From: Anaerolineae bacterium UTCFX2
GTDB lineage: Bacteria > Chloroflexota > Anaerolineae > Anaerolineales > UBA4823
Length of the DNA stretch: 64,000 nt
Assembly: GCA_002050125.1 (NCBI GenBank)
Contig: MWTA01000038.1
Span: 1-64,000 of the forward strand
Direction of reading: 5' to 3'
Part shown: positions 4,830-64,000 of the stretch, in pieces
Position numbering within the stretch: the stretch's first letter is position 1
Layout: each line of letters opens with the position of its first letter
The notes under the pieces: generated by a model
Seen by the model: the letters and a program-made list of their open reading frames with translations, nothing else
Databases searched by the model: none
What the model was told of the DNA's origin: nothing
Translations under genes and position numbers: made by a program

Positions 4830-5372
4830 ATGCCAGAAATCCAAATCCGTCCCGTTTTGCCAGGCGATATCGCCGAGTTGATCGAACTGGATCATTCGTA
4901 TTCCAGCGATCTGGTCTGGCAAATGGATTTCAAACACGACCGCCTGCATGGTCAGATCAATATTGCGTTTCGCAAAGTGAATCTGCCCCGCTCGGTGCGC
5001 CATGAAGTCCCGCGACCGCCGCGCACCCTGGCGGATGACTGGCAGCGCTTCTCCGGCATGCTGGTGGCAGCCATCGAGGAGCAGCCGGTTGGGTACATCA
5101 GCATCCTTCTGGATCCCATCACACGGGCTGCCTGGATCCCCGACCTGCTGGTCAACCGTCCGCTGCGCCGTCAGGGCATCGGAAGCGCATTGCTGCTCTC
5201 CGCCGCGGACTGGGCAACCACCAAAGACAGCCGCGATATGGTGCTGGAAATTCAGCCGCGCAACGGACCTGCCATCGAAATGGCGCTCAAGCTGGGCTTT
5301 GAATTCTGCGGTTACAACGATTTTTACTACCCGGTTAATGAGATCGGATTGTTCTTTCGGAAATCCTTTTAG
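4830..5372 (+). CDS. GNAT-family N-acetyltransferase
   Basis: A 180-residue acetyl-CoA-dependent N-acetyltransferase of the GNAT fold. The N-terminal strand IQIRPVLPGDIAEL is typical. The acetyl-CoA pyrophosphate loop is RRQGIGSALL (Q/RxxGxG/A) at about residues 115-124. The later segment LEIQPRNGPAIEMALKLGF, followed by GYNDFYYP, matches motif B. The substrate cannot be inferred. It lies 15 nt after the Ig-like membrane protein and may be in the same transcript. Confidence 0.85.
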   Translation: MPEIQIRPVLPGDIAELIELDHSYSSDLVWQMDFKHDRLHGQINIAFRKVNLPRSVRHEVPRPPRTLADDWQRFSGMLVAAIEEQPVGYISILLDPITRAAWIPDLLVNRPLRRQGIGSALLLSAADWATTKDSRDMVLEIQPRNGPAIEMALKLGFEFCGYNDFYYPVNEIGLFFRKSF

Positions 5373-5419
5373 TTTGCGATGAGCTGCCGCTTTGCAGCCT
5401 TATTGACCACCTTATTGAA

Positions 5420-7393
5420 ATGCACGATCTGTTGATCAGTTCGCTCCGAACGTTAAATAGCTTTCTTGCAGCCGGGATCGCCATCACAGCCTTCTCGCTG
5501 CTGCTCTATGCCTTATCGTTCAACTTGCGCGATTGGGTGGCGCGCTCGTTTACAATCATCCTGGCGTGTGTGGTAACCGTGTTCGTTGGCGAGGCGTTGA
5601 GCAGCGTCGCGCCGACCCAGGAGCTGCTGGAGTTCTGGCTGCATTTTCAATGGGTGGGCATCATCATCCTTCCCGCGGCTTACCTGCATTTTTCAGACGC
5701 CCTGCTCGCCACAACCGGACGACCATCGCGGGGACGGCGCCGCATCGCCATCCGCCTGATGGATCTGATCGCGATTGGCTTTTTGCTGGCGCTGCCAACT
5801 GGCTTCCTGGTAGGACCCATGGTCGCGGAGGCGGTCCCGATCCCCCATCTTCAGCGCACCGGGGTGACCTGGGTGTTTGCGCTGTTTTACGCCATCGCCA
5901 TGCTGGTTTCCTGGATCAACTTCTGGAGAGCCTACAAACGCACCGTGACGAGCACAACCCGGCGCCGAATGACCTACCTGATCGCCGGGGCGCTTGCGCC
6001 TGCCTTGGGTTCATACCCATACCTCCTTTTCGGTTCGGGGATCGCTGCCCGCTCTCCGTTGTTGTTCTGGTTCACGGTAACCTTCAGCAATCTGTTGATC
6101 ACTTTCCTGTTGGTGCTGATGGCTTACGCGGTCGCGTTTTTTGGCGTTCCCTGGCCAGACCGGGTAGTCAAACGCCGCTTATTCAAATGGCTGATGCGCG
6201 GACCGGTCACCGCTTCCACGGTCCTGGTTTTAACCACCACTTTCCGCCGTTTGGGTGTGCGCGCCGGGGTGGATCTTTCGGCGATTATCCCGGTGATCAT
6301 GGTCGGCGCGATCCTGTTGTTGGAGCATTTAATTACCCTGGTCGCCCCCATCTGGGAACGCTGGCTTTTCTTTGGAAAAGACCGATCGGAAATGGAACTT
6401 TTGCAAACGCTTGACGAACGTTTGCTCACCCTGGGAGACCTGCAGCAGTTTTTAGAGGCAATTCTGGCGGCGGTGTGCGACCGCCTACAGGCGCCTCAGG
6501 CTTTTATCGCTACCCTGGGATCTCAAGAGATCGAGACTTTGATCATCGTAGGAGGTGAAAAATCGCTTAAGAATGAAGATTTTCCGGTCAGTTCAATTCG
6601 CGCCGCCGCCAGCGATGGCGGCAGCCGTCCGCTGTTCGCCTGGGGCGATTACTGGATCGTTCCATTAACGGACCTGGACGACCAACCGAACGATCTGATC
6701 GGCTTGCTGGGCGTCTGGCGTCATCCGGATCAGGAACTCGATCACGAGCAGTTGGACGACCTGTTGCTATTGAGCCGCCGGGCAGCCCTGGCAATCGGCG
6801 ACCGCTACCGCCAGGAGCAGGCGTTTAGCTCGTTAGAAGAGCTCTCGCCAGAAATCGAGATGATCCAACGCTTGCGCGCCGCTTCGCGCTACGCCGGCAC
6901 GGACGTGCTGACTTCGCCGGAAATTCCCATCAAAGAAAGCGACCTCTCTTCGCTCGTAAAAGATGCCCTGACCCATTATTGGGGGGGTCCCAAGCTGACC
7001 GGCAGCCCGCTGCTAAATTTGCGGGTTGTGCGGCAAACCGCTCAGACGCAAAAGGAAAGCTCGATCAACGCCCTGCGCTCGATTTTGCGCAAGGCGATCG
7101 AGCACGTCCGCCCGGAAGGAGAAAGGCGCTTTACAGCGGATTGGATTTTGTATAATATATTGGAAATGAAGTTTCTCGAAGGTCGCAAGGTTCGGGAAGT
7201 CGCCATGCGGCTGGCAATGTCCGAAGCCGACCTCTACCGCAAACAACGCGTGGCAATCGAGGCAGTCGCACAGGCAATCATTGAAATGGAACAGGATGCG
7301 CTCCGGGAGGGATCGCTGCCTGGTCTAGACGATCTGAATTTCAAACAAAAAATCGAGGAATATGCACGGGGAGGAGTTCTTAATGGTGAATAA
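5420..7393 (+). CDS. Membrane sensor protein: multi-TM domain, GAF domain, possible C-terminal HTH
   Basis: A 657-residue protein. About residues 10-300 form an N-terminal multi-pass membrane region (seven or eight hydrophobic stretches) like the sensor part of 7TM histidine kinases. A short charged link (FFGKDRSEMELLQTLDERL) leads to a GAF-like domain at about 330-475. No H-box or HATPase motif follows, so it is not a histidine kinase. The last 130 residues (from about 510) are helical and basic and contain REVAMRLAMSEADLYRKQR, which reads like a helix-turn-helix. I infer a membrane-bound one-component sensor or regulator, with moderate uncertainty. Its stop overlaps the start of the S1-repeat gene by 11 nt, so the two are coupled. 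Confidence 0.7.
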   Translation: MHDLLISSLRTLNSFLAAGIAITAFSLLLYALSFNLRDWVARSFTIILACVVTVFVGEALSSVAPTQELLEFWLHFQWVGIIILPAAYLHFSDALLATTGRPSRGRRRIAIRLMDLIAIGFLLALPTGFLVGPMVAEAVPIPHLQRTGVTWVFALFYAIAMLVSWINFWRAYKRTVTSTTRRRMTYLIAGALAPALGSYPYLLFGSGIAARSPLLFWFTVTFSNLLITFLLVLMAYAVAFFGVPWPDRVVKRRLFKWLMRGPVTASTVLVLTTTFRRLGVRAGVDLSAIIPVIMVGAILLLEHLITLVAPIWERWLFFGKDRSEMELLQTLDERLLTLGDLQQFLEAILAAVCDRLQAPQAFIATLGSQEIETLIIVGGEKSLKNEDFPVSSIRAAASDGGSRPLFAWGDYWIVPLTDLDDQPNDLIGLLGVWRHPDQELDHEQLDDLLLLSRRAALAIGDRYRQEQAFSSLEELSPEIEMIQRLRAASRYAGTDVLTSPEIPIKESDLSSLVKDALTHYWGGPKLTGSPLLNLRVVRQTAQTQKESSINALRSILRKAIEHVRPEGERRFTADWILYNILEMKFLEGRKVREVAMRLAMSEADLYRKQRVAIEAVAQAIIEMEQDALREGSLPGLDDLNFKQKIEEYARGGVLNGE

Positions 7394-8375
7394 ATCTCGT
7401 CACTATCAAGAGCAAATTGAACCACCACAGCCAATGGATGAATCCTGGTGGGAAGCCGTTTTGGCGCAAGAGGATGAACAAATCGAATCAAACCTGGGGC
7501 GTTCCGCCCGCGCGTCAGCCGCAGTCTCGCATTGGGATGAGCTAAGGCACGATCAACTCGGTGAAGATGAATACCTGAACTGGGAACAAGCATTCGAGCT
7601 GTATGAACAGGATCAGGTCATCCGCCTGGCTGTCTCCGGCTGTAATCGGGGGGGGCTGCTGGTCAGCGGAGAGCATTTGCACGGCTTTGTTCCGCTCTCG
7701 CACCTGGTCGAATACCCATGCCAGAGCGAAGACCCGGAAAGCTGGCTTGCCACCTATCTCGATCGCATGCTCGACTTAAAAGTGATCGAATGCGACCGCG
7801 AACGTGGGCGCGTCGTCTTCTCCGAACGAGCCGCCCAATCCCACCCTGGCAGCCGAAATACCCTGCTTACCAACCTTACTCCGGGTAATTGCGCCAAGGG
7901 GATCGTAACTAACATCACAGATTTCGGGGTGTTTGTTGATTTGGGGGGCGTCGAAGGGCTGGTGCACGTTTCCGAGATTTCCTGGGGACGGGTGCAGCAC
8001 CCTTCGGGAGTGGTCTCGCTGGGGCAGGAAGTGGTCGTGTATGTGATCTCCGTCGATCCAAAACGGGCGCGCGTCGCCCTCAGCCTCAAGCGCCTGCACA
8101 AGAACCCCTGGGAGACTGCTGAAATCCGCTACGTTCCGGGTCAGATCGCCGACGCGGTGATCACCAGCATCGTCCCTTTCGGGGCGTTCGCCCGGCTTGA
8201 AGAGGGTTTGGATGGTTTGATCCACGTATCCGAGATCGCCTCTGGCGACGACCCGGACGCGCTCGCCGGGTTGTTCGAAGGTCAACCGGTGCGCGTGCGG
8301 ATTTTACACGTCGATGCGCCAAAACAGCGCCTGGGGCTCAGCCTGAAGTTGAACGACGAGCTTGTCTTGAGCTGA
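7383..8375 (+). CDS. S1 RNA-binding repeat protein (ribosomal protein S1-like)
   Basis: A 330-residue protein with three S1/OB-fold RNA-binding repeats. The first is divergent (GGLLVSGEHLHGFVPLSHL, about residues 80-98). The second is canonical (GIVTNITDFGVFVDLGG, then VEGLVHVSEISWG, about 175-205). The third contains VPFGAFARLEEGLDGLIHVS near 265-284. It probably binds mRNA and acts in translation or RNA turnover, like a short RpsA. I chose the ATG at 7383 over the one at 7362 because GGGGAGGAG at 7368-7376 is ideally spaced for it. It overlaps the upstream sensor gene, which suggests translational coupling. Confidence 0.85.
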   Translation: MVNKSRHYQEQIEPPQPMDESWWEAVLAQEDEQIESNLGRSARASAAVSHWDELRHDQLGEDEYLNWEQAFELYEQDQVIRLAVSGCNRGGLLVSGEHLHGFVPLSHLVEYPCQSEDPESWLATYLDRMLDLKVIECDRERGRVVFSERAAQSHPGSRNTLLTNLTPGNCAKGIVTNITDFGVFVDLGGVEGLVHVSEISWGRVQHPSGVVSLGQEVVVYVISVDPKRARVALSLKRLHKNPWETAEIRYVPGQIADAVITSIVPFGAFARLEEGLDGLIHVSEIASGDDPDALAGLFEGQPVRVRILHVDAPKQRLGLSLKLNDELVLS

Positions 8376-9128: not shown

Positions 9129-9170
9129 AAAATCCCCGCCGCGCAGCCTTCTGAGGCTGATCGGCGGGGA
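9129..9170 (-). terminator. Intrinsic terminator between comEA-like and methyltransferase genes
   Basis: TCCCCGCCG (9133-9141) pairs with CGGCGGGGA (9162-9170), with an inner CAGCCT/AGGCTG stem. On the minus strand the hairpin is followed by TTTTC, so it terminates the methyltransferase operon. It may act in both directions because the comEA-like gene converges on it. Confidence 0.8.
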
Positions 9171-9200
9171 ACATTCCTTAGTCTGCGTGAACAATCCGCG

Positions 9201-10058
9201 TCAGGCGGCCGCCTGCGCGCGCTTGCGAAAAGCTTTGATCCAGCGCGCCGCATACTCATCATGCCCGGTCAACAAATCGCACGCCAGAATGGTCGTCTGA
9301 ATTTCCGGCACCGTGGGGTCTGTAATGGCAGTCGTCAATCCGCTTCCGATCGCTAATGCCAGATAAGCGATATTGAGTATCTTGCGATCCGGCAAGCCAA
9401 ACGAGACATTGCTGGCGCCCAGCGACAAATTAACGCCCAATTCCTGGCGTACGAGCTTCATCGAATCCAGCGTAATTCGTCCCGCGTGGTGGTCTGCGCC
9501 AACCGTGAGCGCCAGACAGTCGATGATTACATCTTCCGGCGGAACGCCAAAGTCCGCCGCCCGGTTAACCAGCTTGCGTGCGACCTTCAGCCGGGTTTCC
9601 GGCGTAGCGGGGATGCCGCTCTCATCCTGGATCACGCCGATGACCGCCGCGTTGAATTGCTTGGCGAGCGGGAGAACCCGAACCATCATCTCCTCTTCGG
9701 CGGTTGTGGAGTTTATCAGCGCCTTACCGGGATAAATCTCCAGCGCGGCCTTCAAAGCATCCGGGTTCGCCATGTCGAAGCACAGCGGCACATCCACTAT
9801 TCCCATCACCGCCTGCACCGCGCCGCGCATCAGGGCTGGCTCATCCGCGCCCGGAATGCCCACGTTCACGTCCAGCACGTGCGCGCCAGCCTCAACCTGT
9901 TTAAGCGCGTCCTGCTGAGCTACGGAGAAATCTCCCTGCGCCATGGTCTCAGCCAGTTTTTTGCGGCGGGTCGGGTTGATCCGTTCGCCAATGACCACGA
10001 ACGGCGCCTCCGGGCTAATCACAACGGTGTTATCTTTGAAAGACAGCTTAGTTTCCAT
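9201..10058 (-). CDS. Methyltetrahydrofolate:corrinoid methyltransferase (MtgA/AcsE-like)
   Basis: A 285-residue TIM-barrel protein of the pterin-binding (DHPS-like) family. Signatures are VIGERINPTRRKKL near residues 22-35, AGAHVLDVNVG, ALINSTTAEEE, and NVSFGLPDRKILN near 217-229. The last two are typical of methyltransferases that move a methyl group between a corrinoid protein and tetrahydrofolate (MtgA, AcsE, the MetH pterin domain). It lies 14 nt downstream of the corrinoid protein gene and so probably uses that protein as partner. Here it would produce methyl-THF from methyl groups delivered by the MttB-family enzymes encoded divergently. The direction in vivo is inferred. Confidence 0.88.
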   Translation of the reverse strand: METKLSFKDNTVVISPEAPFVVIGERINPTRRKKLAETMAQGDFSVAQQDALKQVEAGAHVLDVNVGIPGADEPALMRGAVQAVMGIVDVPLCFDMANPDALKAALEIYPGKALINSTTAEEEMMVRVLPLAKQFNAAVIGVIQDESGIPATPETRLKVARKLVNRAADFGVPPEDVIIDCLALTVGADHHAGRITLDSMKLVRQELGVNLSLGASNVSFGLPDRKILNIAYLALAIGSGLTTAITDPTVPEIQTTILACDLLTGHDEYAARWIKAFRKRAQAAA

Positions 10059-10072
10059 CAGACTTTCACTCG

Positions 10073-10699
10073 CTATGCTACGAGTTGCTTGATAATTCGG
10101 ACCGCGCTCGAAGCATCGGGCGCAAAAGCGTCCGCGCCAACTTGTTTGGCATAGGCGTCCGTAACCGGCGCACCGCCGATCACGACCTTCACAGTATCCC
10201 GTAACCCGGCAGTTTGCAGCGCCTGAATGGTGGTCTGCATGTAGCTCATCGTGGTGGTCAGCAGCGCCGACATACCGATTATATTTGCGCCATCCTGCGC
10301 CGCTTGCACGAACTTCTGGGAATCCACATCTGAACCAAGATCCTGAACTTCAAAACCCGCGCCTTCGAGCATCATCGCGACCAGGTTCTTGCCAATGTCG
10401 TGTAAGTCGCCTTTTACCGTGCCCATCGCCACTTTCCCGGCAGCTTTCACGCCGCTATCGATCAGGTGGGGTTTCAGCAGACCCAGCCCAGACTGCATAG
10501 CGCGGGCTGCAATCAGCATTTCCGGAACAAAGAAATCGCCCTCTTCGAACCGCTTACCGACCTCTTCCATGGCTGCGATCAAAGCCTGATTCAAGATCAC
10601 ATCCGCTGCAACGCCTTCCGCCAATGCCGCCTGAACCCCGGCTTGTACTTCTCCAGCGCTACCATCAACTACACTCTGATAAATCTTCTGAAGTTCCAT
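10073..10699 (-). CDS. Methyltransferase corrinoid protein (MtbC/MttC-like)
   Basis: A 208-residue cobalamin-binding methyl carrier. The N-terminal helical cap domain covers about residues 1-88. The Rossmann-like B12 domain contains GTVKGDLHDIGKNLV, with the cobalt-ligating histidine at about 100 (DxHxxG). SVDSxK-like and GGAPV segments follow. The length matches MtbC/MttC/MtgC. It carries a methyl group on cobalt between an MttB-family enzyme and the pterin-dependent methyltransferase encoded just downstream. A GAGG Shine-Dalgarno precedes the ATG. A separate reactivating enzyme (RamA-like) is not seen in the window. Confidence 0.92.
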   Translation of the reverse strand: MELQKIYQSVVDGSAGEVQAGVQAALAEGVAADVILNQALIAAMEEVGKRFEEGDFFVPEMLIAARAMQSGLGLLKPHLIDSGVKAAGKVAMGTVKGDLHDIGKNLVAMMLEGAGFEVQDLGSDVDSQKFVQAAQDGANIIGMSALLTTTMSYMQTTIQALQTAGLRDTVKVVIGGAPVTDAYAKQVGADAFAPDASSAVRIIKQLVA

Positions 10700-10791
10700 T
10701 TTAACCTCGCTTGATGATTGATATTGATCTTCCTAACTTCTTGCGTCTAATTTTATGATTTCCTTTGCACCCGATCTGACCGATCGAGAGT

Positions 10792-11487
10792 TTAATCTAC
10801 ATGCCAGGATGGCGCAATTTCGTCCAATACGCGATCCAGGATGGCATCCTCAGAGGTGTCGATATCATCCAATAGCGCTGCCTTTGCGGCTGCGACATCC
10901 TTGTTCACCAGCGCTTCCACAATTTTCGCGTGGGTGATTTCCTGTGAAAAACCGCCATGTCGCAGCACCATAAAGCGCGCCAGGCGGTCATGCAGATGGC
11001 CGATCATCTCCGCCAGTTCCAGGTTTCCCGAAGCCAGCCCAATCAGGTAATGAAAACGACGGTTCTCGTCTGTGTACCGGTCGTAAGATTCGTCGTCATC
11101 CCCGGTGTAGCCTGCATGGACGCTGCGCAGTTCGCTAACTTGCTCTGCTGTGATCCGCTGCGCCGCCATTTCAACCGCGGAAACCTCCAGGATTTTGCGC
11201 AATTGTAACATATCCCGCAGTTTTTTCAATGTAAGCCGAGCCACAAAATAACCCGAACGCGGCTTAATCTGCACCAGTTCTTCCTGACCCAGCATCTGCA
11301 GCGCGTCGCGCACGGGCGTTACGCTGGTTTGATAGCGCCCAGCCAACTCATCCACGTCCAACCGTTCTCCTGGCTTGATATGCCCCATGATGATCAAACG
11401 GCGCACCTCCCGGAAGATCCGGGTCTTCGATGTGTCGTTCTCCACTTTGTGCGCGGCAGGTTCAGAGGGATGGTCAATCAAATTCAT
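10792..11487 (-). CDS. GntR-family transcriptional regulator (FCD/FadR subfamily)
   Basis: A 231-residue regulator with an N-terminal winged HTH (about residues 18-85: FREVRRLIIMGHIKPGERL, then ELAGRYQTSVTPVRDALQML) and a C-terminal all-helical FCD ligand domain (about 95-220) with the usual Asp/His metal-site residues (RFHYLIGLASGN). It is encoded upstream of the corrinoid and methyltransferase genes and divergently from the first MttB gene. A perfect palindrome sits on the divergent promoter, which makes it the likely local regulator. Its ligand may be the methylated substrate or a product. There is no clear Shine-Dalgarno before its ATG. Confidence 0.9.
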   Translation of the reverse strand: MNLIDHPSEPAAHKVENDTSKTRIFREVRRLIIMGHIKPGERLDVDELAGRYQTSVTPVRDALQMLGQEELVQIKPRSGYFVARLTLKKLRDMLQLRKILEVSAVEMAAQRITAEQVSELRSVHAGYTGDDDESYDRYTDENRRFHYLIGLASGNLELAEMIGHLHDRLARFMVLRHGGFSQEITHAKIVEALVNKDVAAAKAALLDDIDTSEDAILDRVLDEIAPSWHVD

Positions 11488-11558
11488 AGTGTGTAAGCGT
11501 TATCGTACCATAAGGGATGCAGAATATCAAGCGCTAATATTTCTGAATTGTCTTACAC

Positions 11559-11587
11559 TTGACATCTGATATATTAGATGCTAATAT
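11559..11587 (+). promoter_or_regulatory. Consensus sigma-70-type promoter of the MttB operon
   Basis: TTGACA (11559-11564) and TAATAT (11582-11587) are separated by exactly 17 nt. The predicted start is near 11594, giving a leader of about 57 nt before the ATG at 11651. Confidence 0.8.
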
Positions 11588-11588
11588 A
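11570..11588. promoter_or_regulatory. Palindromic operator over the MttB promoter
   Basis: TATATTAGATGCTAATATA is a perfect inverted repeat with 8-nt arms and a 3-nt centre. It covers the whole -10 box. A longer imperfect repeat (ATCTGATATATT at 11564-11575 against AATGTATCAGAT at 11590-11601) surrounds it, and an extra half-site GCTAATAT occurs at 11533-11540. This is the most likely binding site of the adjacent GntR regulator. Confidence 0.65.
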
Positions 11589-11650
11589 AAATGTATCAGA
11601 TACGGCAGAACCAACTTTTATAATAATGAACTACCCCGCGAGGCAACCCG

Positions 11651-13093
11651 ATGATTGAAACCCATGGTAAAGAAATGACAAGCGCCCATTATGCACGCAT
11701 GGGTCAGACAGAGTGTGAAAAAATCCATCTGGCGACCCTGGAGATCCTGGAGCGCGTTGGCGTGGATGTCCATGATGAAAACGCGCGCAACTTGCTGGTG
11801 CGCGGCGGCGCTAAAGTCGATAGCATCCGCGTCCGCATCCCCGAGTTCATGGTAACCAGGGCGCTTTTAACCGCCCCAAAGCAATTGACGCTATACGACC
11901 AAACCGGGAAAGTCGCCATCCGCGCCGGCGGCTATCGTTCTTATTACGGCGGTGGTTCAGATTGTTTGAACATCCTGGATCACCGCACCGGTCAGCGGCG
12001 CAAACCCACGCTGAATGACGTGCGCGACGCCGCCCGACTGATGGATGCCCTGCCGGAGATCGATTTCTGCATGTCGGCTTTCTTGCCCGCGGATGTCGAC
12101 CCTCGCATCTACGACCGCTATCAAATGGAGGTCATGCTCAACAACACCACCAAACCGATTGTCTTTGTTACCCCAGACTTCGAAGGTTGTGTGGCAGCGG
12201 TCGAAATGTGCGAGATCGTCGCTGGCGGCGCCGAGGCTTTTCAGCACCGCCCTTTTGCAACCTGTTATATCAACGTGACCTCCGGTCTGACCGCCAACGC
12301 CGAAGCCCTTCAAAAATGCATGTACCTGGCTGAAAAGGGGCTGCCCCAGTTGTACATCCCGCTCAACGCTGGCGGGGTTAACTCGCCCGTAACGACCGCG
12401 GGCTGCATGGCATCCATGAACGCCGGGATCCTGCTCGGGGTCGTGCTTTCTCAACTGGTCCAGGAAGGCGCCGCGGTCGCGGTCCCGGGCTGGAACGGCG
12501 GTCCTTACAACCTACAGACCATGGTCGGCAACTACGTCCTGGCAGACGAGCAGGGCGTGCCAACGTCTATGGGCAGATACTACGACCTGCCGGTCTTTGG
12601 TCTGGGCGGTTCGACCGATTCGAAAATCCTCGATCAGCAATGCGGTTTTGAAGTCACGCTGAGCTTGATGACTTCCTTGCTTCACGGCGCCAACATCGTC
12701 CACGATGCGGGTTTCATGGACGCCGGCTTGCAAGGCTCCTTACAACTGATCGCGCTGGTCAACGACTATCTCGGATTTCTGCGCGCCGCCACAGCCGGGG
12801 TGAAGGTCAACAGCGAAACCCTTGCTCTGGACGTCATCGAAGAAATGGGACCGACGGGGAATTATCTCGGTCACGAACATACGCTGCGCCACTACAAAGA
12901 GCCGTTCTACTCCGCGCTAGCCGATAAAAACCCCTATTCGGTCTGGGAAAAACGCGGCGCGACCTCGATGGAAGAGCGCGCCGCCCGGCTGGTCGACCGC
13001 TTGCTCTCCGAACACCCTGTCAGATCTCTGCCGGCGGACGTTCAGGCTGGGATCAAGGCGATCGTCCAACGCGAACAGGCACGCCTCGATTAG
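11651..13093 (+). CDS. MttB-superfamily corrinoid methyltransferase, non-pyrrolysine type
   Basis: A 480-residue member of the trimethylamine methyltransferase (MttB) family. The frame is open from ATG to stop with no internal TAG, so it lacks pyrrolysine. It therefore belongs with the non-Pyl branch, whose known members demethylate quaternary amines such as glycine betaine, proline betaine or carnitine. Typical segments are LATLEILERVGVDVHDE at the N-terminus, YYGGGSDCLNILDHRTGQRR, and the C-terminal VWEKRGATSMEERA. It would transfer a methyl group to the corrinoid protein encoded divergently. GAGG lies 7 nt before the start. The exact substrate cannot be read from sequence. Confidence 0.9.
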   Translation: MIETHGKEMTSAHYARMGQTECEKIHLATLEILERVGVDVHDENARNLLVRGGAKVDSIRVRIPEFMVTRALLTAPKQLTLYDQTGKVAIRAGGYRSYYGGGSDCLNILDHRTGQRRKPTLNDVRDAARLMDALPEIDFCMSAFLPADVDPRIYDRYQMEVMLNNTTKPIVFVTPDFEGCVAAVEMCEIVAGGAEAFQHRPFATCYINVTSGLTANAEALQKCMYLAEKGLPQLYIPLNAGGVNSPVTTAGCMASMNAGILLGVVLSQLVQEGAAVAVPGWNGGPYNLQTMVGNYVLADEQGVPTSMGRYYDLPVFGLGGSTDSKILDQQCGFEVTLSLMTSLLHGANIVHDAGFMDAGLQGSLQLIALVNDYLGFLRAATAGVKVNSETLALDVIEEMGPTGNYLGHEHTLRHYKEPFYSALADKNPYSVWEKRGATSMEERAARLVDRLLSEHPVRSLPADVQAGIKAIVQREQARLD

Positions 13094-13183
13094 TGACCCA
13101 CTTGAGGAAGACTGCCCAGCCAGCCTGACGAATTCATTTTTGCAACCCTGAACACAAACGGCAAACCAGAAAGGCTAAAGTTG

Positions 13184-14434
13184 ATGCACACCCCAGAAGA
13201 AAAACCGTTTTTCATGCGCGATCCCTGGGTGTACGACCCGGAGAAGCAGCCTCAACCGCGCCCCGACGCCGGGCTGGGTTTCGATACGCGCGCCCTGCAT
13301 GCCGGGTTCCACCCCCTGAAGAACGTGGAGCAATTCCGCGCCTTTGTCCCGCCCATTGCTCAATCGATGACCTATCCGTATGCCTCATTCGATAAATTCC
13401 CCGATTACATCTATGGGCGCAGCAAAACCCCCACGACAAGCGTATTGGAGGAGCGTCTGGCTGCGCTCGAAGGGGGCGAGAGCGCCGTAACTGCCGGTTC
13501 CGGCTCGCAGGCTTTGTTCAATCTGATCTTCACCATCGCCCGCCCCGGCGATAACGTGGTCACCTCCCTGAACACTTTTGGCGAGGGCTACAAACAGGCT
13601 GCGACGATCTTTCCCGAACGCTGCCACGTTGAGTTCCGTTTCGTCAAAGACTACACCAATCCGGCTGCCTGGGATCGCGCCATCGATAGCAAAACCCGCC
13701 TGGTCTGGGTCGAGACGCCGAGTAACCCCTGCCTGCAGGTCACCGACATCGCCGCGGTCGCGCAAGTCGCCCACGCGCGCCGGGTGCCGTTACTGGTCGA
13801 TAACACCACCGTCACTTCCGCCCTGCAAAAACCGCTGGAACTGGGCGCGGATATCATCCTGCTCTCACTCACCAAGTTTCTCTCCGGAAACGCTACCGTG
13901 CTTGGCGGGGCAATCGTTGGTCCAGAAGCGCTGGTCGAGGATATTCGCTGGAACACAACCGAATTTGTCGGCGCCATTTTGCAGCCTTTGGAAGCCTGGC
14001 TCATGCTCCAGTACTTGGAAACCCTCTCGCTGCGCATGGAGCGGCACAGTTCAAACGCCCAGAAAGTCGCCGAGTTCCTGGCTACTCATCCCAAGGTCAC
14101 GCAGGTCAATTACACCGGTTTGCGGGCGCATCCCCAATTCGACCTGGCGCAGCGCCAGATGAAAGCCAACGGCGGGCTGCTCTCCTTCATTGTTCCAGGC
14201 GGGATGAAAGGCGCTGAAACCGTGATGGACAACGTTAAACTGATCGTACACGCCGTCACCTTTGGCACCAGCCGGACAATTTGTATGCATCCGCGCACCA
14301 TCACGCACGAGCATATGACCCAAGAAGAGCGCGACGAAGCTGGCATCGCCGACGGGCTGATCCGCCTCTCGATCGGTCTTGAAGACCCGGCTGATATTAT
14401 CAGCGATCTTGATCAGGCGCTCGCCAAATTGTGA
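13184..14434 (+). CDS. Cys/Met metabolism PLP enzyme (cystathionine gamma-synthase / methionine gamma-lyase-like)
   Basis: A 416-residue fold-type I PLP enzyme of the trans-sulfuration family. Motifs are GFDTRALHAGF, YGRSKTPTTSVLEERLAALE (substrate loop), GSGSQALFN, WVETPSNP, and LLSLTKFLSGNATVLGG with the PLP lysine at about residue 231. Members include cystathionine synthases and lyases, O-acetylhomoserine sulfhydrylase and methionine gamma-lyase; I cannot assign which. I start at the ATG at 13184, not the adjacent TTG, because AGAAAGG is well placed for it. Its position between two MttB-type genes suggests that the demethylated product, or the methyl acceptor, is a sulfur or 4-carbon amino acid. 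Confidence 0.88.
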   Translation: MHTPEEKPFFMRDPWVYDPEKQPQPRPDAGLGFDTRALHAGFHPLKNVEQFRAFVPPIAQSMTYPYASFDKFPDYIYGRSKTPTTSVLEERLAALEGGESAVTAGSGSQALFNLIFTIARPGDNVVTSLNTFGEGYKQAATIFPERCHVEFRFVKDYTNPAAWDRAIDSKTRLVWVETPSNPCLQVTDIAAVAQVAHARRVPLLVDNTTVTSALQKPLELGADIILLSLTKFLSGNATVLGGAIVGPEALVEDIRWNTTEFVGAILQPLEAWLMLQYLETLSLRMERHSSNAQKVAEFLATHPKVTQVNYTGLRAHPQFDLAQRQMKANGGLLSFIVPGGMKGAETVMDNVKLIVHAVTFGTSRTICMHPRTITHEHMTQEERDEAGIADGLIRLSIGLEDPADIISDLDQALAKL

Positions 14435-14565
14435 TCCACGCTTTCACTCTTGTTTCGGACAGCAGTTCATCTTATATCTGCCCGAAATGCATTGGTTTTC
14501 TATCTTTTTAGATCAAATCAAGCTAAAATATCTCCAAATTAGAATCTTGCTATCTGGAGGAACCG

Positions 14566-15732
14566 ATGTCCGATTTTTCTGATCGAGTTATGAACCTTGC
14601 CTCAGAAGGCGCCTATCAAATGATGGCGCGCGCCCAGGCTCTCGAAGCCACCGGGAAAGAGATCATCCACCTGGAAATTGGTCAGCCGGATTTCCCGACC
14701 TACAAAAACATCGCCGAAGCGGGGATGGGCGCGATTGAAGAAGGCTATACCCGCTACACCCCATCGGCGGGCATACCCGCGCTGCGCAAAGCGATTGCCG
14801 AAGACGCCGGAAATCGGCGGGGCATCAATTTCGACGCTGCTCAGGTGGTGGTCGGTCCCGGCGCCAAAACGGCGCTCTTCTTCCCCACGCTGGCGCTCGT
14901 CCGCCCGGGAGACGAAGTCATCTACCCCGACCCGGGCTTTCCCACGTACAGAGCCATGATCGAGGTCGCGGGCGGCGTGCCGGTTCCGGTCGCGCTGCGC
15001 GAGGAACAGGACTTTTCCTTCGACCTGGATGCCTTTGACCGGCTGTTGAGCCCCAAGACCCGCCTGATTGTTCTGAATACGCCCAGCAACCCCACGGGCG
15101 GGGTGATGCCGCTGGCAGCCCTCGAACACATCGCCGAAGCAGCCCGCGAACGTGACATCTGGGTGCTCTCCGATGAAATCTATGCCCGCCTGGTCTACGA
15201 TGCGCCAGTCCCCAGCATCGCCGCCCTGCCCGGAATGCTGGAGCGCACCATCATCTGCGACGGTTTCTCTAAAACCTACGCGATGACCGGCTGGCGGCTC
15301 GGTTATGGGATCATGCCAGCCGCGCTCGCGGGGCGCGTCGAGTTACTGCTCAACCATTCGGTTGGCTGCACCGCCTCCTTCACCCAGATCGCCGGCTTGG
15401 AAGCCATCCAGGGCCCGCAGGATCAGGTGGATGTGGTGGTAGCGGAATTCAATCGTCGCCGCCTGGCGCTGGTTGCGGCGCTGAACGAACTGCCCGGCGT
15501 GCACTGCCGCATGCCGCAGGGCACGTTTTACGTCTTCCCCAACGTCACCGCGCTCGGAAAATCATCCGATTGGTTGGCGGATTATATATTGAACGAGGCA
15601 GGCGTGGCGCTGCTCCCTGGCACCGCCTTTGGCGAAAACGGCGAAGGCTATCTGCGGCTGTGTTTCGCCAATTCACTCGAAAACCTGCAAATCGCAGTAG
15701 AGCGCATTGGACGCGCGCTTGCCAGGCTGTAG
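14566..15732 (+). CDS. Class I/II pyridoxal-phosphate aminotransferase
   Basis: A 388-residue AspC/AvtA-type aminotransferase. Family signatures are LEIGQPDFPT, YTPSAGIPALRKAIA, NTPSNPTGG, VLSDEIYARLVYD and GFSKTYAMTGWRLGYG, with the PLP lysine at about residue 236, and LRLCFAN near the C-terminus. It transfers an amino group from an amino acid to a 2-oxo acid; specificity is unknown. CTGGAGG precedes the ATG. A 131-nt AT-rich gap separates it from the upstream PLP gene, so it may have its own promoter. It lies 27 nt before the second MttB-family gene. Confidence 0.88.
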   Translation: MSDFSDRVMNLASEGAYQMMARAQALEATGKEIIHLEIGQPDFPTYKNIAEAGMGAIEEGYTRYTPSAGIPALRKAIAEDAGNRRGINFDAAQVVVGPGAKTALFFPTLALVRPGDEVIYPDPGFPTYRAMIEVAGGVPVPVALREEQDFSFDLDAFDRLLSPKTRLIVLNTPSNPTGGVMPLAALEHIAEAARERDIWVLSDEIYARLVYDAPVPSIAALPGMLERTIICDGFSKTYAMTGWRLGYGIMPAALAGRVELLLNHSVGCTASFTQIAGLEAIQGPQDQVDVVVAEFNRRRLALVAALNELPGVHCRMPQGTFYVFPNVTALGKSSDWLADYILNEAGVALLPGTAFGENGEGYLRLCFANSLENLQIAVERIGRALARL

Positions 15733-15759
15733 GTTCGGTTTCTCTCAGGAGCATTTCTA

Positions 15760-17214
15760 GTGACGCTGACTAATTACTCCGATCGTCAGTCCCCGCAATT
15801 TCGCGTGCTCTCGGACGCTCAATGCCGCGAGCTCTACCTTGCCACGCTGGAATGTCTCAACCGCATCGGGGTGCTGGTCTATGAGGAACAGGCGCGCAAC
15901 TTGCTTGCTTCCGCCGGAGCTGATGTGGACGGTGAACGGGTTTATATCCCGCCCCATATCATCCAGGAAGCGCTGGTGACCGCGCCGCGCACATTCACCC
16001 TGTGGGGGCGCGACCGCCAGCACGAATTGCGCATCTCGCCCGACCGGGTCTATTACGGACCTGGACCGACGTGCACCTATTTCCTGGACCCGGTTACAGG
16101 CGAGCGCCGCAAAGCGCGCCGCGGCGATGCAGCATACACCGCGCGAGTTTCCGACGCCCTGCCCAACATCGACTATGTAATGAGTTTGAGCCTATACGAT
16201 GATGTGACGCCAGTTCTTTCCCCGGTTTACGAATTTGCGGACATGGTTGCCAACACCGGCAAGCCGATTGCCGCCTGGGCAACCGACGTGCACACCCTCC
16301 AGGACATTCATCAGATCGCGGCAGCAGCAGCCGGCGGCGCAGAGAACTTGCGCCGTCAGCCGATTTACACCTACTTTGCCACCTACGAATCCCCGCTGCG
16401 TCACAGCGAAAAAACAATCGAGAACTTGATCTGGGCGGCGCGCAACGACGTGCCGATCGTCTATCTGGGTGGACCCTCGGTCGGCGTCGAAGCGCCGGTG
16501 ACCGGCGCCAGCGGGCTGGTCGTCTTTCTGGCAGCCGCGCTGAGCGGCTTGGCGATCGCCCAACTCGCCCAAAAAGGCGCGCCGGTCATCGTCGGCGGTG
16601 TAATCTCCGCTATGGATCTGCGCACCGCCCGACCCTCCTACGGCTCGCCGGAGATGAGCCTGTACGTCGCGGCGGCGGCTGACCTCACCCGCTACCTGGG
16701 TCTCCCGTTTATGGGCACCGCGGGCGCCTCCGAAAGCAAAAAGCCCGATGCGCAGGCTGCCATCGAAGCCTCGATCGAGGTTCTGATGAACGGCTTGAGC
16801 GGCGCTGGATTGGTTCACGACGTCGGTTTCCTGGACTGCGCCGACATCGGTTCGCTCGAGATGCTGGTCATGTGTGACGAAATCATCAGCCTTGTTCGCC
16901 GCATCCTGCGCGGCGTGGAAGTCAACCGGCAAACCATTATGCTCGACCTAATCGAAAGGGTTGGTCCAGGGAATTGTTTCATCGCCGAGCCAGAATCCGC
17001 CGCTTTGTGCCGCAGCGAGATCTGGATGCCAAAGCTGCTTAGCCGTGAGACCTGGGTTAACTGGGAAAAGCAAGGCGCGAAGAGCATGGAACAGCGCGTA
17101 AACGAGCGCCTGCAGCAGATCCTCGCCTCGCACCAGCCGCCGCCCCTGCCGCCCGGAGTGGCGGAGACCATCCAATCGGTGCTGAATGCCGCCGAGCAGC
17201 GCTGCGCGCGGTAA
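15760..17214 (+). CDS. Second MttB-superfamily corrinoid methyltransferase, non-pyrrolysine type
   Basis: A 484-residue paralogue of the MttB-family protein encoded at 11651. It shares the same framework: LATLECLNRIGVLVYEEQA, GPGPTCTYFLDPVTGERR, and the C-terminal NWEKQGAKSMEQRVN. The protein is a TIM-barrel methyltransferase without an in-frame TAG. The two copies have diverged clearly, especially near the substrate region, which suggests different substrates or sequential demethylation steps. The GTG start has a CAGGAG Shine-Dalgarno at 15746-15751. It is the last gene of the plus-strand arm of the methyl-transfer locus. Confidence 0.88.
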   Translation: MTLTNYSDRQSPQFRVLSDAQCRELYLATLECLNRIGVLVYEEQARNLLASAGADVDGERVYIPPHIIQEALVTAPRTFTLWGRDRQHELRISPDRVYYGPGPTCTYFLDPVTGERRKARRGDAAYTARVSDALPNIDYVMSLSLYDDVTPVLSPVYEFADMVANTGKPIAAWATDVHTLQDIHQIAAAAAGGAENLRRQPIYTYFATYESPLRHSEKTIENLIWAARNDVPIVYLGGPSVGVEAPVTGASGLVVFLAAALSGLAIAQLAQKGAPVIVGGVISAMDLRTARPSYGSPEMSLYVAAAADLTRYLGLPFMGTAGASESKKPDAQAAIEASIEVLMNGLSGAGLVHDVGFLDCADIGSLEMLVMCDEIISLVRRILRGVEVNRQTIMLDLIERVGPGNCFIAEPESAALCRSEIWMPKLLSRETWVNWEKQGAKSMEQRVNERLQQILASHQPPPLPPGVAETIQSVLNAAEQRCAR

Positions 17215-61349: not shown

Positions 61350-62375
61350 ATGGCGATTGCAACGAAAGGGAAAGACAAAATAGAATACAGACCTATCAGC
61401 GCGGACACCCAGCTCTCAATCCAGAATTTGCACGTCTGGTATGAACTGCGCCGCTTTGGTTTTGGACATGCGGGTTACGTGCGCGCGGTGGACGATGTCA
61501 GCTTTGATTTGAAAAGAAAAGAGACAATTGCAATTGTTGGCGAGAGCGGTTGCGGCAAGTCGAGCCTGATGAAAACCATCCTGGGGATCAACACCCCCAC
61601 CAAGGGCGATATCTTCTATGAAAATCGCCCCATGACTTCATTCAGGCGGAAAGACTGGAACTGGTATCGATCTCAGGTGGGCTTTATCCAGCAAGACCCT
61701 TACGGCGCGCTGGCGCCTTTCATGAACGTTCAGGCGATTATGGAAGAGCCTTTGATCATCCATGGCGTAAAGAACAAGCAAGAGCGCCTGGACAAAATCC
61801 AAAAGATTTTCGAAGAAGTTAAACTCACGCCGGTCGATGAATTTCTACCCAAGTATCCCCACATGCTCAGCGGCGGTCAGCAGCAGCGCGTGGTCATCGC
61901 CCGCGCGATGATCTTGAACCCCAAACTGCTGGTGGCAGACGAACCGGTCTCGATGTTGGATGCCTCCGTGCGCGTTGAAATCCTCAAATTGCTGCGCACT
62001 CTGCAGGAAGCCCACGAACTGGCGGTGATCTACATCACCCACGACCTCTCCACAGTGCGCTACTTCTCCGAACGCATCTTCGTCATGTACGCCGGACAGA
62101 TTGTCGAGAAAGCCAACGTCGAAGAATTGGTTATGAACGCCCAGCACCCCTATACGCACGCCCTGCTGTCAGCCACCTCCGACCCGGATGCCAAGAATGT
62201 CGACGAGCTGCAAGACGTGCCTCCCGGCGAGCCGCCCAGCCTGGTGCACCCGCCAAAGGGCTGCCGCTTCTATCCCCGCTGCCCCAAGTTCATGGAGGGC
62301 ATCTGCAACGTCAAAGCCCCGCCAGAATTCGAGCCGGTGAAAGATCATTTCGTCAATTGCTGGCTCTACGAATGA
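61350..62375 (+). CDS. ABC transporter ATP-binding protein (OppF/DppF-type)
   Basis: A 341-residue ATPase. Walker A is GESGCGKSSLM, the signature is LSGGQQQRVVIARAM, Walker B is LLVADEPVSMLD, and the switch is YITHD. The C-terminal extension contains CRFYPRCPKFMEGIC, again the oligopeptide-type cysteine motif. An insertion (ELRRFGFGHAGYV) follows the first strand. AGAAAGG supports the ATG at 61350. Its stop overlaps the next start by 4 nt. Confidence 0.93.
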   Translation: MAIATKGKDKIEYRPISADTQLSIQNLHVWYELRRFGFGHAGYVRAVDDVSFDLKRKETIAIVGESGCGKSSLMKTILGINTPTKGDIFYENRPMTSFRRKDWNWYRSQVGFIQQDPYGALAPFMNVQAIMEEPLIIHGVKNKQERLDKIQKIFEEVKLTPVDEFLPKYPHMLSGGQQQRVVIARAMILNPKLLVADEPVSMLDASVRVEILKLLRTLQEAHELAVIYITHDLSTVRYFSERIFVMYAGQIVEKANVEELVMNAQHPYTHALLSATSDPDAKNVDELQDVPPGEPPSLVHPPKGCRFYPRCPKFMEGICNVKAPPEFEPVKDHFVNCWLYE

Positions 62376-62581
62376 TCAACCTCCCGCCGCGCCGCCTGCT
62401 GCTGATCGCTTTCCTGTGTATGGTGGTAGGAGGCGTGGCGTTCCCCTTTCTGATGATCATGCATGTGCTGGAATCAACGTTTTTCCTGAATTTCCTTTCT
62501 TTCGTTCTCATGCTGATCGGTTTGGTCGTGGGAATCCTGGGCGCAGCCGGCTATGCACGCTCAACTCGAAATGATCGGTGA
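62372..62581 (+). CDS. Small two-helix membrane protein at the end of the importer operon
   Basis: A 69-residue protein with two transmembrane helices (about residues 10-32 and 37-60) and a basic C-terminus. The ATG at 62372 overlaps the OppF-type stop (ATGA), so it is translationally coupled to the importer. It may be an accessory subunit, but its function is unknown. Confidence 0.6.
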   Translation: MINLPPRRLLLIAFLCMVVGGVAFPFLMIMHVLESTFFLNFLSFVLMLIGLVVGILGAAGYARSTRNDR

Positions 62582-62671
62582 GCCGGGCGCAAGCGCCACC
62601 CGCCTGACCGCGATATTTAGCCACAGCAGCCAACCTCGTTCTAGTTTCTCCTGAATAGTACTGATAACCTA

Positions 62672-62699
62672 TTTACAGCGGCGATTCTCTCGTTATACT
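62672..62699 (+). promoter_or_regulatory. Promoter of the GntR-ThiF fusion gene
   Basis: TTTACA (62672-62677) and TATACT (62694-62699) are separated by 16 nt. The predicted start is near 62706, giving a 37-nt leader that contains GAGAG before the ATG at 62743. Confidence 0.65.
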
Positions 62700-62726
62700 T
62701 GGTATTGTGGTCTGACCAACATACCA
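62700..62726. promoter_or_regulatory. GntR-type operator at the GntR-ThiF promoter
   Basis: The 27-nt inverted repeat has arms TGGTAT-tg-TGGT and ACCA-ac-ATACCA around CTG, with 10 of 12 positions paired per arm. Its perfect core TGGTCTGACCA (62708-62718) fits the TNGTNNNACNA pattern known for FadR-type GntR regulators. It begins immediately after the -10 box and covers the predicted start, so binding would block initiation. Confidence 0.7.
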
Positions 62727-62742
62727 CTACGAGAGTTGGATT

Positions 62743-64000
62743 ATGGAAATTATCCCCGTCCCCCGCCGCAGCCTAGCCGACTTTGTCGCCGGCAAGCTGG
62801 CAGCCTCCATCCTCAACGGCGCTATTCCGACCGGCAGCCAGCTCCCCCCCGAGCGCGAGCTCATGAAGCAGCTTGCCGTCTCGCGTTCAACCGTCCGCGA
62901 GGCGCTCAAAGTTCTGGGCGACAACCACATCATCGATGCGCGCCAGGGCGTCGGTTGGTTCGTCCGCAAGATCGACCAATCCAATTTCGCCCGCGCCCGC
63001 GAGCTGGCGCAGACCGAGCGCGAAGAAGCGCCTCCGCTCAGCCGACCTGCCTCCAGCGACATCCCTACCGGTCCGCGCCGCCTGCCGGTCGCCCCGGAAA
63101 AACCGCTGCGCATCCCAAACCTGCGCACCGACCGCCTCGGCACCTTCGATTTCATCTCCTGGTGGGAGCGCAAGCGCGTCGAAGAAGCCAAAATTCTGAT
63201 CGTCGGGGCGGGCGCTTTGGGCAACGAGGTGATTAAAAACCTGGCGCTCATGGGCGCCGGCAACCTCTTCATCCTGGATTTCGATACGATCGAAGCCGCC
63301 AACCTTTCCCGCTCGCCGCTCTTTCGCGAGAGCGATGAGGGACGGCGCAAAGCCGAGGTCGCCGCGGCGCGGGTCAAAGAGCTCAATCCGAACATCCACG
63401 TCCAGTACCACCACGGCGATGTCACCACTCAGCTCGGTCTGGGCGTCGTCCGCCGCATGGACGTGATCATCGGCTGCCTCGATAACCGCGAAGCCCGGTT
63501 GGCGCTCAACCGCTTTGCCTACTGGATGAAAAAGCCCTGGGTCGATGGCGCCATCCAGGAACTGCTTGGATTAGTGCGGGTCTTCATCCCCGGGCAGGGC
63601 GCGTGTTTCGAATGCACGCTCAACGAGCAAGCCCGCCGCGATCTGGCGGTGCGCTACTCGTGCCCGCTGCTCGCCCGCCAGAACATCCTGCTCGGCAAGG
63701 TCCCCACCACGCCGACCATCGCTTCTATCATCGGCGCGATGCAGTCTCAGGAAGCCCTCAAGCTGCTCCACAACATGCCGGTCGAGCCGGGCAAGGTCGT
63801 CCATTTCAACGGCATGATCAACGAGATGCACACCACCTCCTACAACCCGCGCGACGACTGCGAGAGCCATTGGACTTATGGCGAAATCACAGAACTGCCC
63901 GCCAGCGTCCATTCCACCACCCTGTCGGACTTGCTGCGCATCGCCGCCGCCGAACTCGGTCCCGATACGATCATCGAGCTCGACCAGGAACTCATCCTCT
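62743..64000 (+). CDS. GntR-HTH fused to ThiF/E1-like adenylyltransferase (3' end beyond window)
   Basis: An open frame of at least 419 codons, cut by the window edge. Residues 8-75 form a GntR winged HTH (LPPERELMKQLAVSRSTVRE, then RQGVGWFVRK). A Pro-rich linker (about 90-125) follows. Residues 130-365 form a ThiF/MoeB/E1-like domain: GAGALG (155-160), DFD (179-181) with NLSR (Arg 190), a Cys pair C288-x-x-C291, C307 in YSCPLL (candidate catalytic Cys), and C373-x-x-H376, which could complete a zinc site. ThiF-type enzymes adenylate the C-terminus of ubiquitin-like or sulfur-carrier proteins. This fusion to a DNA-binding domain is rare. About 45 further residues start another region. Confidence 0.88.
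   Translation, partial: MEIIPVPRRSLADFVAGKLAASILNGAIPTGSQLPPERELMKQLAVSRSTVREALKVLGDNHIIDARQGVGWFVRKIDQSNFARARELAQTEREEAPPLSRPASSDIPTGPRRLPVAPEKPLRIPNLRTDRLGTFDFISWWERKRVEEAKILIVGAGALGNEVIKNLALMGAGNLFILDFDTIEAANLSRSPLFRESDEGRRKAEVAAARVKELNPNIHVQYHHGDVTTQLGLGVVRRMDVIIGCLDNREARLALNRFAYWMKKPWVDGAIQELLGLVRVFIPGQGACFECTLNEQARRDLAVRYSCPLLARQNILLGKVPTTPTIASIIGAMQSQEALKLLHNMPVEPGKVVHFNGMINEMHTTSYNPRDDCESHWTYGEITELPASVHSTTLSDLLRIAAAELGPDTIIELDQELIL

Follow-up and report, generated by a model that had tools for sequence, protein, structure and literature searches.

Most work on bacterial ubiquitin-like (Ubl) conjugation operons treats them as phage-defence or stress systems whose regulators are separate, and versions with a RING finger and a YukD-like Ubl were reportedly covered by Burroughs et al. 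in 2011. Prokaryotic operons that combine E1, E2, JAB and Ubl genes were described by Iyer, Burroughs and Aravind (PMC1779556), in a text that makes no mention of winged or HTH domains. For the Bil and Bub conjugation operons the regulators are encoded by separate genes (CapW, CapH with CapP, or CapK with CapS) and respond to DNA damage (PMC13373217), and BilD contains an inactive as well as an active adenylation domain (PMC11354881). The locus analysed here begins inside a 64,000-nt window (the whole stretch of DNA examined, from Anaerolineae bacterium UTCFX2) and continues beyond its right edge. It shares with the PMC1779556 operons the grouping of E1-like, E2-like, Ubl and JAB genes, and with the 2011 examples the RING finger and the YukD-like Ubl; unlike the PMC1779556 operons, it has a GntR domain on the E1 (GntR-E1) with an operator of its own, a Ubl-E2 fusion, membrane FHA and VWA proteins and a fixed gene order. 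As in Bil and Bub, a bacterial Ubl conjugation operon appears to stand under a dedicated DNA-binding regulator, but there the regulators are separate genes and here the E1 itself would be the regulator. A Pfam search of the protein found a single ThiF domain, against the two adenylation domains of BilD, which sets GntR-E1 apart from Bil. With GntR regulators of the FadR/PdhR type it has in common the winged HTH, the DNA-contact arginines and the TGGTCNGACCA operator core; where those carry an FCD effector domain, it carries an E1 enzyme. BirA is an adenylating biotin ligase that represses its own pathway, and it resembles GntR-E1 in joining an adenylate-forming ligase and a winged HTH in one (here putatively) autoregulatory protein, although its catalytic fold is unrelated and its substrate is a vitamin rather than a protein modifier. 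Biotin protein ligase is presented as a bifunctional enzyme-repressor in PMC7235819. In the literature that could be searched, no self-regulating E1-transcription factor came to light, though the surveys of 2009 and 2011 may include the fusion. In this case the predicted regulator and the opening enzyme of the cascade are one polypeptide, and its predicted DNA site could be mapped by comparative genomics.

The original prediction, made from the letters of the window, was that one uninterrupted frame joins a GntR winged HTH to a ThiF-type adenylyltransferase, the latter standing where FCD would be expected. Both points held. The frame is open from its ATG to the window edge (419 aa) and reaches a stop at 64389 on the same contig (G000:C4, 87,968 bp), and Pfam finds GntR and ThiF domains that each score far over the curated cut-offs, and no FCD/FadR_C effector domain, in the protein (Table 1). 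We ruled out a frameshift or an assembly fusion: homologues are one gene, and the same fused architecture recurs in many independent assemblies, in proteins 65–81% identical over their full length. In a PDB profile search the ranking began with the eukaryotic E1s UBA7 and UBA1, followed by the SUMO E1, ThiF, the NEDD8 E1, MoeB and UBA5, and the N-terminus matched PdhR (9e-13). The conserved C-terminal region contains CxxC/CPxCG pairs of zinc-ribbon-like appearance and then a flexible tail with RIRL/KVIL-type motifs. An AlphaFold model made from an alignment of three sequences had a mean pLDDT of 43 and is usable for the GntR domain alone, which shows winged-HTH secondary structure at pLDDT ~80. 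As the linker between the domains (~residues 80–125) varies among homologues and is modelled with very low confidence, the GntR and E1 domains could act independently. Upstream of the GntR-E1 promoter, a small hydrophobic ORF (~69 aa; 62373-62582, + strand) separates it from a gene for a peptide ABC-transporter ATPase.

Table 1. Positions of the GntR-E1 gene, its domains and the predicted control elements (window numbering unless marked as contig).
Feature	Position	Strand	Basis or remark
GntR-E1 gene	62743-64389 (ATG 62743; window edge cuts at 64000)	+	ORF and contig read-out, 548 aa
GntR winged HTH domain	62776..62964 (residues 12-74)	+	Pfam GntR, E 7e-18
E1/ThiF adenylation domain	63154..63861 (residues 138-373)	+	Pfam ThiF, 1e-54
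Conserved C-terminal region	63862..64386 (residues 374-548; in window to 64000)	+	Kept in homologues
Sigma-70-type promoter TTTACA-N16-TATACT	62672..62699	+	10/12 matches
Left half-site TGGTAT	62700-62705		Site-aligned loci
Predicted operator TGGTCTGACCA, perfect FadR/GntR-type palindrome	62708..62718	+	Follows the -10 box closely
Accessory half-site ATACCA (extended operator TGGTCTGACCA-N2-ATACCA)	62721..62726	+	Site-aligned loci
14-bp-stem GC-rich hairpin	Contig 69410-69441		Directly 3' of VWA gene; terminator-like

To place the functional residues we used an automatic alignment of GntR-E1 with E. coli MoeB, ThiF, FadR and PdhR. The nucleotide-site, Arg and zinc residues that the enzyme had been said to retain are found in the alignment to MoeB: R131, D179, N187, R190, K203 and D247 correspond to MoeB R14, D62, N70, R73, K86 and D130, and the zinc ligands C288/C291 and C373 to C172/C175 and C244, with H376 (CxxH) probably serving as the fourth ligand. 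In the GntR domain R38, R48 and R52 align with the FadR DNA-contact arginines R35, R45 and R49. The automatic alignment has a gap around C307, and we read this residue by eye, from its flanking motif (YSCP... versus TCVEAG), as the candidate thioester Cys equivalent to ThiF C184 and MoeB C187. All of these, the MoeB-equivalent positions, the FadR-type arginines and C307, are invariant in twelve homologues. We infer that GntR-E1 is an active E1.

The distribution of the fusion was surveyed within Chloroflexota. Among 400 genomes sampled from the order Anaerolineales, 82 gave a match at a threshold of 1e-60, and in 75 of the 82 genomes it reaches into the GntR part; those that stop short of GntR are mostly contig-edge fragments or distant E1 copies. 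Intact fused loci read from many families of the order have an identical seven-gene order. The fusion is also present in the class families f129, f133 and f144, with some variation in JAB: the f129 and f133 loci contain an additional, second JAB, and the f144 locus has a single JAB, of the type that is added there. In a tree built on the E1 part common to all, the 31 fused rows group together (95/83) with the unfused E1 of G1005 next to them (99/98), the MoeB/ThiF rows are separate (100/100), and several distant unfused rows sit on long branches and are unsure in their mutual order. The simplest account of this topology would be a single origin of the fusion followed by long retention.

GntR-E1 had been expected to start its own transcription unit, and this agrees with the promoter directly in front of it. 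The palindrome TGGTCTGACCA behind the -10 box matches the operator core of E. coli FadR, and the operator type of the FadR subfamily, TNGTNNNACNA, is present in fused loci as TGGTCWGACCA. When we searched 44 non-redundant fused loci up to 60 nt from the start, scoring 11 positions with the centre free, TGGTCWGACCA was matched at 10/11 or better in 43, compared with 0.058 expected from base shuffles. Over the same 44 loci the operator positions are conserved at 0.91–1.00 and the centre at 0.80, and most other upstream positions lie at 0.3–0.6. A right half-site follows at fixed spacing (ACCA in 37 loci, exact ATACCA in 28), and TGGT on the left is seen in 19. Most homologues have a TATAAT-like -10 in front of the operator, most often 8–11 nt before it, so that the operator covers the expected transcription start (~+1). 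Five of six class-level fused loci beyond the 44 have the exact operator; the sixth (L136, G956, f144) has TGGTATACGTGGCATACCA upstream of the E1, a wider palindrome of the same half-sites. None of the ten unfused loci examined has the operator at its E1 promoter, and the stray matches there lie inside the E1 coding region (L053, 10/11) or far off in the locus (L091). The operator thus co-occurs with the fusion. Two TGGTCNGACCA sites are found in the source genome (2.9 Mb), the second of them inside a glycosyltransferase-like coding sequence. Twelve other genomes hold 1–6 copies each, in 10 of 12 including one at the operon's own promoter; the exceptions are G003, with a one-base variant at the operon promoter, and G333, which has no exact copy at the operon. 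With so few copies per genome, and one at the operon promoter in most, the target looks to be that of a dedicated, local regulator. We rejected a global regulator: these counts are near those of a reversed-pattern control and therefore indicate no regulon. A FadR-type operator conserved at the promoter of the operon itself supports a role of the GntR part in transcription.

The rest of the Ubl system was predicted to lie to the right of the window, and it does. On the same strand, with intergenic gaps of 3 to 93 nt, GntR-E1 is followed by genes for a membrane RING protein, a Ubl-E2 fusion, a YukD-like Ubl, a JAB/JAMM peptidase and two membrane proteins, first FHA and then VWA. Since a promoter precedes the first gene and a hairpin follows the seventh, the unit probably comprises exactly seven genes; terminator-like matches as a class were not commoner than in shuffles, and this hairpin stands out by its stem. 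The RING protein has three membrane segments by prediction and, at its C-terminus, a RING-like zinc domain with conserved ligand pattern (C-x2-C, C-x2-C-x4-H-x2-C and a final C-x3-H), whose Prok-RING_1 match (5e-5, 23.6 bits) lies below the Pfam cut-off of 29.1 here and above it in unfused relatives (2e-10). In the Ubl-E2 fusion (283 aa; UQ_con 2.9e-10) the E2 catalytic-Cys motif HPNI..GxVC is kept in most copies among the aligned fused loci, and the Ubl part also carries TAG with the E2 directly behind it. The free Ubl (88 aa; YukD 1.7e-11; pI ~4.3) ends in ...TAG in every fused locus read through except L101, where the end looks frameshifted; a modifier gene, whose presence in neighbouring loci the original prediction depended on, occurs at every intact locus. 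In G1005 the free Ubl (L138, 14066-14341) extends shortly past TAG, to ITAGRQL, suggesting proteolytic maturation after TAG. The JAB peptidase (JAB 9.6e-12) has the JAMM residues E..HTHP..S..D here and E..HxHP..S..D across loci. The RING and FHA proteins are predicted membrane proteins, as is the VWA protein, whose N-terminus is signal-like and which has a predicted membrane segment close to its C-terminus as well as a basic tail. In one locus (L107, G374, 5050-8146) the Ubl-E2, FHA and VWA frames are split, probably by sequencing errors in the assembly. For the question of where ubiquitin signalling came from, the operon contributes one more lineage in which a eukaryote-like cascade includes a RING protein.

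A short motif of the form [IV][RKH][LIVF] (for example RIRLK, KIKLKG or SIRLLP) is repeated among the operon proteins: five of the seven carry it in a flexible end. We noticed it in L002 (contig 62001-82000) and homologous loci and compared it with composition shuffles: it occurs in the last 12 residues of E2 in 32/33 sequences (shuffled mean 3.1), in the VWA tail in 29/31 (7.6), in the E1 tail in 21/24 (6.4), in the N-terminal extension of JAB in 23/31 (3.4) and in the stretch before RING in 19/36 (4.9). The C-terminus of JAB was at chance (2/33). The C-terminus of FHA also exceeded its shuffle (13/33 vs 3.2), probably because of a folded strand, and part of the signal elsewhere could therefore be ordinary strand patterning. 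As the motif was counted on the same data in which it was noticed, we treat it as a working idea: it is possibly a common docking motif for the Ubl, and an acidic Ubl would fit such a role for basic-hydrophobic tails.

These observations suggest that expression of the tagging machinery is probably under its own control. What the sequences establish is the fused gene, the operon, the conserved catalytic and DNA-contact positions, and an operator that accompanies the fusion; E1 activity, repression and allosteric coupling are inferred. We consider it likely that GntR-E1 is an active E1 for the operon's Ubl and represses its own operon, and we propose that its DNA affinity responds to ATP/Ubl binding or charging. 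ThiF/MoeB-type E1s are usually homodimers, and a GntR-E1 homodimer would bring two GntR domains onto the palindrome, in lieu of an FCD dimerisation domain. It would then bind TGGTCWGACCA (with the ATACCA half-sites) over the transcription start and block the promoter. As an enzyme it would adenylate the C-terminal Gly of the YukD-like Ubl encoded three genes downstream. Its C307 may then hand the Ubl on to the Ubl-E2, whose catalytic Cys lies in HPN..GxVC; the membrane RING protein would be the E3 and the JAB the deconjugase. Binding or charging by ATP/Ubl, or binding of the Ubl or E2, may alter the DNA affinity of the dimer, and expression of the conjugation machinery would track how much free modifier is available, much as with BirA. 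Repression is favoured because the operator is at +1, although autoregulation could also take the form of activation. A switch of DNA binding by adenylation or by binding of the modifier, as suggested earlier, is a plausible hypothesis. We are more tentative about a fuller scheme, to which we give a little less than an even chance, in which the E1 is both sensor and regulator (charging or modifier/E2 binding setting promoter occupancy, with direct feedback from free Ubl) and the shared tail motif docks the partners on a common partner, possibly the acidic Ubl. The system is small, and modifier supply, E1 charging and gene control could be addressed with one protein and one DNA fragment.

A dedicated operator at the operon's own promoter, and a variable, low-confidence linker between the domains, would also be expected of a constitutive autorepressor, in which the GntR domain provides plain negative feedback on E1 dose without any signal from the active site. 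This is a real possibility that we are nevertheless inclined to doubt: a separate repressor gene would do as well, and retention of the fusion since one origin in many families suggests that the covalent linkage itself matters. An active-looking E1 and a DNA-binding domain on one chain might instead serve to tether the E1 (with E2 and RING) to this promoter or the nucleoid, so that DNA-bound proteins are modified; we find this improbable given the few operator copies per genome, with one at the own promoter in most genomes, and given RING, FHA and VWA partners that are predicted to be in the membrane. Homology to ThiF and MoeB is what speaks for a sulfur-transfer enzyme of thiamine or molybdopterin synthesis with a regulatory domain attached. 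Here the NCBIfam scores are far under the cut-offs (140/275 bits for ThiF, 118/266 bits for MoeB), the MoeB and ThiF rows stand apart on the tree, the operon encodes E2, RING and JAB and not biosynthesis genes, and a separate MoeB-type gene is present on another contig of the source genome. On scores, tree and gene context we rejected a cofactor enzyme, which now seems extremely unlikely.

A search with PF00227 detected no proteasome in nine genomes (10 of 14 controls were positive, and the source genome, G000, is 83% complete), so a proteasomal or HslV fate looks unlikely. None of ten flanking genes at eight loci was of a defence type; they belong to metabolic or signalling families or have no Pfam match. 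PADLOC matched the locus with generic E1-E2 and JAB models only, and with such ordinary neighbours we rejected a defence-island context. What we see is a complete E1-E2-RING-Ubl-JAB system in fixed order across the class, and the few flanking genes that we looked at include none of defence or mobile type. Its vertical-looking retention, ordinary neighbours and membrane RING, FHA and VWA proteins, with no proteasome or HslV detected, point weakly away from phage defence and towards a non-degradative kind of modification at the membrane.

In family f20 and a few others, related E1s without GntR stand beside separate Ubl, E2, JAB and RING proteins. In three f20 loci (L091, L092 and L142) the E1 is unfused, Ubl and E2 are separate, and there are two JAB genes as well as RING genes; this arrangement is likely the state before the fusion. 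Several extended matches in f20 contain internal stop codons, which we took to be the E1's own stop with read-through, the open E1 frame being ~400 aa. A further, divergent operon (L093, G312:C1:1474500-1494400, 9146-17077) has neither GntR nor operator and lies in a genome that also has a fused one; its order is E1-E2-E2-Ubl-JAB-VWA-RING, and one of the two E2 copies reads ENGDVSIN, without the catalytic Cys.
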